A stretch of 39,439 nt of DNA from Candidatus Roizmanbacteria bacterium (lineage in GTDB: Bacteria > Patescibacteriota > Microgenomatia > UBA1406 > GWC2-37-13): contig JACQCK010000020.1 of NCBI GenBank assembly GCA_016201695.1, positions 1-39,439 on the forward strand, read 5' to 3'. The notes below the pieces were generated by a model. That model worked only from the letters and a program-made list of their open reading frames with translations. It did no database searches and was not told the DNA's origin. A program made the translations under genes and the position numbers. Positions 10,854 through 35,759 of the stretch are shown here, in pieces; within the stretch, counting starts at the first letter, position 1, and the number at the start of each line of letters is the position of its first letter.

Positions 10854-10909
10854 TAGGTAAGCCCTCGGGATTGAAAAATGCACTATAAAAAAGCTCTCTC
10901 CGTACCCAT

Positions 10910-11086
10910 ATGAATAATATAAAGGATTACGGGTTAATTTTTAACAAAAATAAAAAGTCCGAACGTGAACTAATCGCTGAAACAAATCTACAAGTAAGGA
11001 AAATTGGATTATCATTGCCAGATATCGAACTCCGGAGGTTGCAAATCACTGTGATTAAGTATTCAGACGTTGAGATGAAAGTATAG
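10910..11086 (+). CDS. Small hypothetical protein (58 residues)
   Basis: ATG to TAG encodes a short charged protein that includes AETNLQVRKIGLSLPDIEL. No family is recognised. Support comes from the related but broken copy at 7697-7803, where the reading is kept at the amino-acid level. No Shine-Dalgarno and only a weak upstream AT stretch are seen. It ends 7 nt before the TATAAT of the lycopene-cyclase-like pair. It may be a real small gene or a repeated non-coding element that happens to be open. Confidence 0.4.
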   Translation: MNNIKDYGLIFNKNKKSERELIAETNLQVRKIGLSLPDIELRRLQITVIKYSDVEMKV

Positions 11087-11104
11087 GACAATTATAATGT
11101 GAGT

Positions 11105-11410
11105 ATGTTGAGCTATCCATTGTGGCTATTCTTATTTTGTGTTCTTCCCATAGTCGTTGTATGCCTTTTGGAATTTAAGACCATCAAGAAGTATAAAAAA
11201 GTAATCGCTTTGGCAATAACAGGGTCAATTATATTTTCTTTTCCTTGGGATTTTATCGCAATCCATGAGAAGATTTGGTACTTCACAAAACCACATATTG
11301 TTGGAATTTGGCTGGGAGGACTGCCGATAGAGGAGTGGTTTTTTATTACGCTCGAAACAGTATTATTTACGACAGTTACTATCGTGCTTTGGGAAAAGTA
11401 TCAAAACTAA
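11105..11410 (+). CDS. Lycopene cyclase domain protein, CrtYc-like subunit
   Basis: A protein of about 100 residues with three membrane helices. The conserved core FPWDFIAIHEKIWYF and then GIWLGGLPIEEWFF matches the lycopene cyclase domain pattern (WDxxAxxxxxWxF ... GIxxxxxPxEExxFF). In actinobacteria two such small subunits, CrtYc and CrtYd, form one heterodimeric cyclase that closes the ends of lycopene; the MPLEELLFF-type motif here fits CrtYc. The ATG at 11105 is used because TATAAT (11093-11098) ends 6 nt before it; a GTG at 11099 abuts the box. It is followed after 4 nt by the partner gene. No phytoene synthase or desaturase is in the window. Confidence 0.7.
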   Translation: MLSYPLWLFLFCVLPIVVVCLLEFKTIKKYKKVIALAITGSIIFSFPWDFIAIHEKIWYFTKPHIVGIWLGGLPIEEWFFITLETVLFTTVTIVLWEKYQN

Positions 11411-11414
11411 TTTT

Positions 11415-11738
11415 ATGTTCGGGAAATTTTCTTACTTAATCTACATGTTGATTTTTACCTTAATACCTATCTCTATTTTATGGACTAAATATTACAGTCC
11501 ACTCAAAAAAAATATAAAAATAGTTTTAACGGTTATGATTATTGCCATTATTTATCAACTTATAGCCGACCCATTTGCAGAAGCTTGGCACGCCTGGTTC
11601 TTTTCGGAAAATAAGGTAATGGGACTGTGGCTATTCAATTTCCCAGTTGAGAATATAATTTTTTTCGCGTTGGTTTCAATTGCAATTTCATCAGCTGTAA
11701 TTGCCTTTATATATCACGAACAAAAGAACAAGAACTAA
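11415..11738 (+). CDS. Lycopene cyclase domain protein, CrtYd-like subunit
   Basis: A protein of 107 residues with three membrane helices. ADPFAEAWHAWFF followed by GLWLFNFPVENIIFF follows the same template as the upstream gene, with the PVExxxFF form typical of the CrtYd half. It begins 4 nt after the stop of the first subunit with no Shine-Dalgarno, so the two are co-transcribed and probably assemble into one membrane enzyme. In fungi and archaea the equivalent halves are fused in one chain. Activity on lycopene is inferred from the family. Confidence 0.68.
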   Translation: MFGKFSYLIYMLIFTLIPISILWTKYYSPLKKNIKIVLTVMIIAIIYQLIADPFAEAWHAWFFSENKVMGLWLFNFPVENIIFFALVSIAISSAVIAFIYHEQKNKN

Positions 11739-11899
11739 GAATGAGCCGTTAGCATATTATTCTTAAACGTCCGTAAATAATCTGCTTCCATAAAGTCTTT
11801 AATTATTTAAGTAAGTAACGAAATACATCCAATTTTAGATAGTTATAAGGCTAGCTTTTAAGTATATTTATTTCTTTTTACAAACAATAAAAAATTTCA

Positions 11900-24664: not shown

Positions 24665-25509
24665 TCACGATCTCAAAACCTTAACTAAGGCTACTTGAGA
24701 AAGAAGAACATTAAACATTCTATTTTCATTTTTACGATTATTGTATCTAAATGCAAATTCATCTACATATGCTTGTAAATGTTTTTTACTAACGTGACGA
24801 TAAACTCCATAAATTCCCCGCTTTAGATGACTCCAGACATTTTCAGCATTTTGAGTATAAATATCTCCTACTCTAAAATTCTTTTTATGATTTATGCTGT
24901 AATGGTTATAACCCAACTTTTTAAGTTGATAATAACCTGCATATTCATCTGTCATAATTCTTGCTTTTGGTGAAACAAATTTATTTATTTGTTCAATTAC
25001 TTTCCACCTTTTTTAATCATTCCCATAACTACTTCTTTTGGTTTTTCATTTCCATGCCAAACTTTCATTCGGTTATAGCCTTTTCCGCCAACAAACGTTT
25101 CGTCAATTTCAACATCTCCTTCAAGAGGAGTTATATCCATGTCTGCCATCAATTTTCTGATTTGATGAAACATTCTCCATGCGGTTTTATAGGTTACACC
25201 CAATTCTCTTTGTAATTGTTTAGCCGATACACCCGCACGAGTATTTATCATTAGAAACATAGCATAAAACCATGAAGTTAAAGGAGTAGTTGTTTTTTCA
25301 AGGACTGTTCCTGCAAGTGGAGAGATTTGATGATTACCACCAAATTCACATTCGTACACAGGTCGCCCTTTTACCTTGTAATACTTTGTTATTTTCTCAC
25401 ATTGTTTACAGAAAATTCCATTAGGGAAACGGGTATTTTTTATCGCTTCTAAACATTTCTCGTTAGAGCTATAAACCTTTAGAAAGTCAGAGTAAGTAAA
25501 TCTATCCAT
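24665..25509 (-). pseudogene. IS1595-family (ISXO2-like) transposase, split by a frameshift
   Basis: Two frames together make one transposase. The first (24997-25509, 170 residues) has the N-terminal zinc ribbon (FCKQCEKITKYY), the HTH-like SAKQLQRELGVTYKTAWRM, and the first catalytic Asp in VEIDETFVGG. The second (from about 25000 down to 24665) has TDEYAGY with the second Asp and NAENVWSHLKRGIYGVYRHV, then FAFRYNNR. The switch falls at or after ATT-AAAAAA-GGTGG (near 25012-25022), and a -1 shift restores VIEQINKFVSPKARIMTDEYAG. The run is not in the classic A-AAA-AAG phase, so I favour a disabling mutation, though slippage is possible. Confidence 0.85.
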
Positions 25510-35237: not shown

Positions 35238-35759
35238 ATGGAAGACAAAGAAGTAGTTGCTCTATATAGGCAATTAAAAGAAAAAGGGATTGAGATTTGG
35301 ATTGATGGGGGTTGGGGAGTAGACGCTCTTTTGGGAATCCAGACGCGGGAGCATGAGGACGTCGATATTGTCATTCAACAAAAAGATGTACCGGAGCTAC
35401 GTATATTATTAACGGAAAAAGGTTACAAAGATGTGCCAAGAGACGATACGAGTACTTGGAATTTTGTTTTAGGCGACAGCGATGGACACCTAATAGACGT
35501 CCACGCGATTATTCTTGACGCCAAAGGCAACGGCCTATATGGACCGGCAAAAAAAGGAGTCATGTATCCGGCGAGGTCGCTTATCGGAATCGGGAAAATT
35601 GTTGATCAAACAGTCCGATGCATTGCTGCGGAGTACCTGGTGGAATTTCATAGCGGATATAAGTTAAAAGAGAAAGACTTCAAAGATGTTACGGCGTTGT
35701 GCGATAAATTCAAACTAGATTTACCTGAACAATATAGGGGAAAAAGTTATTCCACTTGA
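35238..35759 (+). CDS. Lnu/LinA-like nucleotidyltransferase
   Basis: A 173-residue protein. WIDGGWGVDALLGIQTREHE followed by DVDIVI (residues 21-46) matches the lincosamide nucleotidyltransferase/ANT(2'')-like family (DGGWxVDxLLGxxTRxHxDxDI); Asp41 and Asp43 would bind the metals, and LIDVHAI adds the third Asp. Known members adenylylate lincosamides or aminoglycosides, but many chromosomal homologues have unknown substrates, so resistance is not implied. TAGAAT (35224-35229) ends 8 nt before the ATG. Confidence 0.78.
   Translation: MEDKEVVALYRQLKEKGIEIWIDGGWGVDALLGIQTREHEDVDIVIQQKDVPELRILLTEKGYKDVPRDDTSTWNFVLGDSDGHLIDVHAIILDAKGNGLYGPAKKGVMYPARSLIGIGKIVDQTVRCIAAEYLVEFHSGYKLKEKDFKDVTALCDKFKLDLPEQYRGKSYST

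Follow-up and report, generated by a model that had tools for sequence, protein, structure and literature searches.

Why does a bacterium with no recovered route to lycopene carry two adjacent genes for lycopene cyclase-like proteins, and what might these proteins do? The question is raised by a 39,439-nucleotide stretch of DNA from a Candidatus Roizmanbacteria bacterium (the window), which is contig C16 of a genome whose 57 contigs were all recovered and sum to 985,006 bases. An earlier note, made from the letters alone, had described the two products as small three-helix proteins that fit a CrtYc/CrtYd heterodimer.

The gene pair and its genome

As the earlier note suggested, both ORFs (Table 1) were compared with the lycopene cyclase domain profile of NCBIfam, TIGR03462 (CarR_dom_SF), which has a curated cut-off of 39.4 bits. 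Both exceed it, with 47.5 bits (E = 1.9e-12) for subunit 1 and 43.5 bits (E = 3.4e-11) for subunit 2. In Pfam PF18916 (Lycopene_cyc), subunit 1 passes the gathering cut-off of 27 with 30.8 bits, and subunit 2 falls under it with 23.5 bits. The profile searches found no competing family for either ORF. The observation of two adjacent, co-oriented genes for small proteins with this domain therefore stands, and by these scores both ORFs are members of the lycopene cyclase domain superfamily. The ATG at 11105, chosen in the earlier note, is an alternative start for subunit 1.

The motifs named at the outset were also seen. Subunit 1 has PWD (P49, W50, and D51), W60, and PIEE (E78 and E79), and subunit 2 keeps PVEN. 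An AlphaFold2 model of subunit 1 (mean pLDDT 94.3, pTM 0.82) has three long helices. The third, which begins with the PxEE motif, is preceded by a short pair of strands. A hydropathy plot of subunit 2 has three hydrophobic segments, in agreement with the proposed three-helix form. Within the clade of orphan pairs that includes the window pair, W, G, and P-x-E-E occur without exception in the c subunits (9/9). The PxE glutamate is found in all nine first subunits and in 9 of the 10 second subunits, having been lost from the second subunit of genome G124 (L158). Differences between the window pair and the related pair at L163 are far lower at codon position 2 (0.14-0.16) than at position 3 (0.50-0.55), and therefore the pair appears to be under purifying selection. 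The G+C content of the pair is 0.338, with 0.34 in the intergenic DNA upstream and 0.25 downstream, compared to 0.445 for the genome and 0.438 for the PALP gene upstream.

Table 1. Coordinates of the gene pair and of other features in the window
Feature	Position	Strand	Basis or remark
Subunit 1 (c-type), 103 aa	11099..11410	+	GTG start; TIGR03462, PF18916, AlphaFold2
Subunit 2 (c-prime type, not CrtYd-like), 107 aa	11415..11738	+	ATG start; TIGR03462, motif counts, tree
Gene junction: subunit 1 TAA, subunit 2 ATG, 4 bases between	11408..11417	+	sequence
AT-rich patch around the pair	10854..11899	.	G+C figures
Restriction-modification-like enzyme, single chain, 840 aa	22064..24586		HSDR_N_2 and N6_Mtase
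IS1595-type transposase	24665..25509	-	spans two ORFs
Nucleotidyltransferase (aminoglycoside 2''-adenylyltransferase family)	35238..35759		PF10706, 108 bits

Three other features of the window are listed in Table 1. The restriction-modification-like gene lies in a patch with a G+C content of about 0.30-0.37. The transposase is probably broken because it is split over two ORFs. The third feature is the nucleotidyltransferase gene.

The assembly has a completeness of 96.4%, a contamination of 0.01%, and a bacterial SSU rRNA (698 bits to RF00177). This rRNA and the small size of the genome fit membership in the CPR, which the earlier note considered probable, and they fall short of proving membership by name. 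The remark that no other carotenoid genes lie nearby is true locally and extends to the whole recovered genome. There is no match to phytoene synthase (SQS_PSY), and HMMs built from the operons of relatives found no crtB, crtE, or photolyase gene. The sole crtI-like match is weak (21.5 bits), and the same protein is better placed as a PRK07233-type oxidoreductase (332 bits). These same searches recovered complete operons in relatives. Since the genome has no lycopene pathway genes, any carotenoid substrate would have to come from outside the cell. An IDI-like NUDIX gene (L098:1302-1922) is present though a prenyl synthase was not found; it scores 48 bits with TIGR02150, which is below the cut-off, and 151 bits with the operon-linked family.

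The earlier note also raised the possibility that the pair supplies retinal to a rhodopsin, which the gene content of the genome does not support. Heliorhodopsin (PF18761) is absent, and the same search was positive for G119 and G173 of the same class. No type-1 rhodopsin (PF01036) was found either, though this search lacked a true positive control, and nothing beyond a broken 13.7-bit match represents Blh/BCD (PF15461).

Origin and relatives of the two subunits

The CrtYc/CrtYd proposal fits the data only in part. The WD, W, and PxEE motifs of subunit 1 are those of the c type, but subunit 2 lacks the signature of CrtYd, [ND]xx[LI][TS]x(x)[PK] (also given as [ND]xx[LI][TS]xRP-like). This signature was derived from crt-operon relatives in the same bacterial class, none of them characterized in the laboratory, and it is carried by 13 of 13 operon d-domains versus 0 of 10 orphan-pair second subunits. 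At the site of subunit 1 W60, operon d-domains have V or I, and nine of the 10 orphan second subunits have W. Profile-profile comparisons gave subunit 2 a score of 113 against the first subunit, 55-58 against operon c-domains, and 34-40 against operon d-domains. Subunit 2 retains the tryptophan of the c type and groups with its partner rather than with operon CrtYd.

We also built a maximum-likelihood tree from an alignment of 80 domains. First and second subunits (PAIRc and PAIRd) are sister groups with support of 99/93, and the pair clade has support of 100/98 in a tree of a reduced set. AU tests of alternative placements gave borderline p values of 0.088 and 0.11, and of 0.079 and 0.046 with the reduced set. 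Because the subunits are each other's sister group, a duplication specific to this pair, separate from that of CrtYc/CrtYd, is favored by the tree, although it is not proven because the alignment has only about 100 columns.

The domain is present in 17 of the 83 genomes of the same bacterial order and in 37 of 372 genomes sampled from the class. Phytoene synthase is missing from 30 of the 44 domain-bearing genomes that were checked, and the remaining 14 mostly carry operons. The relatives are of four types. Type (a) consists of operons with a prenyl synthase, CrtB, CrtI, and split or fused CrtYcd, some of which have photolyase and IDI-like genes as neighbors. The other types are orphans: (b) single domains of ~100 aa, (c) fused proteins of ~260 aa, and (d) split pairs such as that of the window. 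Type (a) occurs in the window's own family as well as elsewhere. The carotenoid operons of that family (L028:7263-11415, L029:297-3359, and L032-L036) are found in genomes of ~0.8-1.8 Mb, and the literature library that we searched had no paper on them. One operon relative, L147 (genome G118), has its phytoene synthase split in two frames, with PF00494 matches in ORFs of 51 and 236 aa, which suggests decay or a sequencing error. The orphan fused loci are L037, L039-L043, L161, L162, and L174, the last from a genome of the Woesearchaeota order. Several of these loci have gatA/gatB close by, together with an adenosine-specific kinase family gene (PF04008).

The two genes stay together in about nine genomes, where the junction varies between a gap of 4 bases and a short overlap. 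Six of the seven genomes of other bacteria with orphan pairs have no phytoene synthase; the exception, G103, has only a 27-bit match with an internal stop. Apart from the pair itself, no neighbor that might point to a substrate is conserved among the orphan-pair loci, and an O-antigen ligase gene (Wzy_C) adjoins the pair solely in two genomes of one family.

A scan with subunit 1 across about 85,000 species genomes yielded one relative, in Candidatus Woesearchaeota archaeon Meg22_1012_Bin_199 (tblastn, 61% over 99 residues). Besides the full pair, its contig encodes apparent archaeal ribosomal and RNA-modification proteins. The domain occurs in 14 of 353 genomes of the same archaeal order, 13 of which have no phytoene synthase match. 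A second Woesearchaeota genome, G744 (L168), has the same pair, and the gene divergent from it reads as an archaeal TFIIB homologue. The genes of the Woesearchaeota pairs overlap or almost touch, and phytoene synthase is absent from both genomes.

A transfer of the pair between domains of life is well supported because its nearest relatives are the pairs of these two Woesearchaeota genomes (49-68% identity). The window pair is 59% (c) and 68% (d) identical to L163, compared to 52% (c) and 49% (d) for L168. In the tree, the second subunit of the window joins L163 (100/97) and L168 falls outside (99/89). The window pair is nested among the archaeal pairs, and bacterial pairs form the deeper branches of the clade. 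The archaeal locus has a G+C content of 0.34, near that of the window pair. Transfer from Woesearchaeota to the bacterium is the simplest direction for the window copy, though it is not proven.

Searches of other collections returned nothing further. Viral contigs held no relative of subunit 1, neither three operon cyclases nor the neighboring PALP gene matched anything in a plasmid collection, and a sequence search of the PDB found no match for the orphan clade or a fused operon homologue. We found no literature on lycopene cyclases in CPR bacteria or Woesearchaeota. A different gene set, the bacterioruberin genes lyeJ, crtD, and cruF, has been described in Patescibacteria of Lake Baikal (PMC9948471).

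Possible functions of the pair

We tentatively propose that the pair is a co-translated heterodimer of c and c-prime subunits, derived from its own duplication, that closes rings on a scavenged linear isoprenoid. This proposal may well be correct, but we hold it with slightly more doubt than confidence. The two half-proteins would associate into a complex with six membrane helices in total. Inside the membrane they would bind a linear isoprenoid lipid that originates in a host or neighbor, such as lycopene or a different acyclic carotenoid or polyprenyl chain. The conserved PxE glutamates would then protonate a terminal double bond, and a ring would be closed at the end of the chain. From the near-touching junctions and the conservation of the pair in about nine genomes of two domains, we infer that the six-helix heterodimer is obligate. 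Likewise, the near-invariant glutamates would suit a ring closure initiated by acid, by analogy with the known cyclases of the family. The cyclase activity of the orphan clade is nevertheless putative, and a cyclase of a known type is not assured, given the missing CrtYd signature of subunit 2 and the lost glutamate in G124.

Uptake of host compounds has been documented or proposed for ultra-small symbionts. The DPANN archaeon Ca. Nanohaloarchaeum antarcticus is selective in the host lipids that it takes up, and its biomass contained bacterioruberins at 0.2% (PMC11035636). Saccharibacteria have been proposed to obtain retinal from their hosts (PMC9296517). Carotenoid uptake is not a given, however, because host bacterioruberins are under-represented in the Nanohaloarchaeum symbiont (PMC11035636).

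A non-catalytic role, in which the pair holds an isoprenoid or glycerolipid in its cavity as a lipid-binding, sensor, or scaffold protein and no cyclization takes place, is somewhat unlikely. This idea draws on a model (pLDDT 87) of the fused operon homologue at L033:9054-9722. Among solved structures, this model best matches MvINS (PDB 4xu4 and 4xu6), a mycobacterial homologue of Insig. Foldseek gave this match a probability of 1.00 and an E value of 0.06, and VIA-align gave a Z of 9.3 with an rmsd of 3.4 over 156 aligned residues at 10% identity; the next unrelated row has a Z of 3.8. The match is a lead only because such Z values can arise by chance in helical bundles, and a common fold would reveal no function in any case. 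When structures were searched with just the 101-residue model of the window protein, the match did not appear. The orphan single-domain and fused forms in many genomes that lack phytoene synthase, and the one second subunit without the glutamate (L158), would also suit a non-catalytic role. By contrast, the near-invariance of the PxE glutamate in all groups suits catalysis. Separately, the L033 model raises the possibility that the Insig and lycopene cyclase families are linked, and none of the papers listed in our literature searches connects the two.

It is unlikely that the pair is a conventional CrtYc/CrtYd lycopene beta-cyclase that makes beta- or gamma-carotene from host lycopene to stiffen the membrane or protect against light. 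Although both subunits match TIGR03462, subunit 1 has the complete CrtYc motifs, and relatives in the same family with full operons place carotenoids in the neighborhood of this lineage, the signature counts, the profile-profile scores of subunit 2, and the sister-group placement of PAIRc and PAIRd in both trees all speak against this explanation.

Two further alternatives appear very improbable. The organism could make lycopene itself from crt genes that fall in the missing few percent of its genome, as the incomplete assembly in 57 contigs and the IDI-like NUDIX gene might allow. However, the whole pathway would have to be missing, a genome that is about 96% complete makes a missing crt cluster unlikely, if still possible, and phytoene synthase is also missing from nearly all other orphan-pair genomes (6/7 bacterial and 2/2 Woesearchaeota). 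Finally, the low G+C content of the pair and its archaeal nearest relatives might reflect contamination from an archaeal bin, which is scarcely credible for a 39-kb contig with bacterial-type genes (e.g., BacA/UppP and the IS1595-type transposase) in an assembly with such low contamination and a bacterial SSU rRNA, all the more as pairs of this clade, though more distant ones, are also present elsewhere in the bacterial class.

Most sampled genomes with a lycopene cyclase-like protein appear unable to make lycopene. Either these minimal and probably host-dependent cells modify pigments or isoprenoids derived from their hosts, or the fold has a role outside carotenoid metabolism. The practice of naming anything above the TIGR03462 cut-off "lycopene cyclase domain-containing" can mislead metabolic reconstructions. 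The pair also provides a clean example of two linked genes common to both domains: the bacterial and Woesearchaeon copies are 59-68% identical. A broader idea, which is conceivable although we lean against it, is that a family of isoprenoid-modifying or -sensing proteins built on the lycopene cyclase fold acts apart from carotenoid synthesis and remodels host lipids in ultra-small, probably host-dependent bacteria and DPANN archaea. The window pair would then be a duplicated two-subunit form that crossed between domains.

Comparison with known systems

One resemblance is to MvINS, which shares the arrangement of membrane helices with the modeled fused operon homologue but has only 10% identity and is not known as a cyclase. 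The fused CrtYcd proteins of crtE-crtB-crtI-crtY operons (L032-L036, L147, L149, L150, L154, and L157) belong to the same superfamily and class as the window pair and have two three-helix domains. They differ in that they lie beside carotenoid genes and carry the d-signature, neither of which applies to the window pair.

The orphan single-domain homologues of the class (L030, L031, L143, L145, L146, and L151) and of Woesearchaeota (L166, L167, and L170) share the c-type motifs WD, RGHW, and PIEE with the window and also occur in genomes without phytoene synthase. Unlike the window pair, they have one domain, which is why they are probably homodimers, and they form a separate clade in the tree.

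Further known counterparts are the heterodimeric lycopene beta-cyclases CrtYc/CrtYd (also CrtYe/Yf and LitAB; TIGR03462/PF18916), which have been classified (Klassen 2010, PMC2889829). A CarRP E78K variant has been used to build a lycopene-producing strain (PMC8803881). The window pair shares with CrtYc/CrtYd the domain family, the PxE glutamates, half-proteins of ~100 aa with three membrane helices, adjacent co-oriented genes, and, in subunit 1, the complete CrtYc motifs. It departs from them in its c-like second subunit, a pair-specific duplication favored by the tree, a genome without a carotenoid pathway, and closest relatives in Woesearchaeota. The pair is an orphan, probably independently paired form of the superfamily that ultra-small bacteria and Woesearchaeota have in common.
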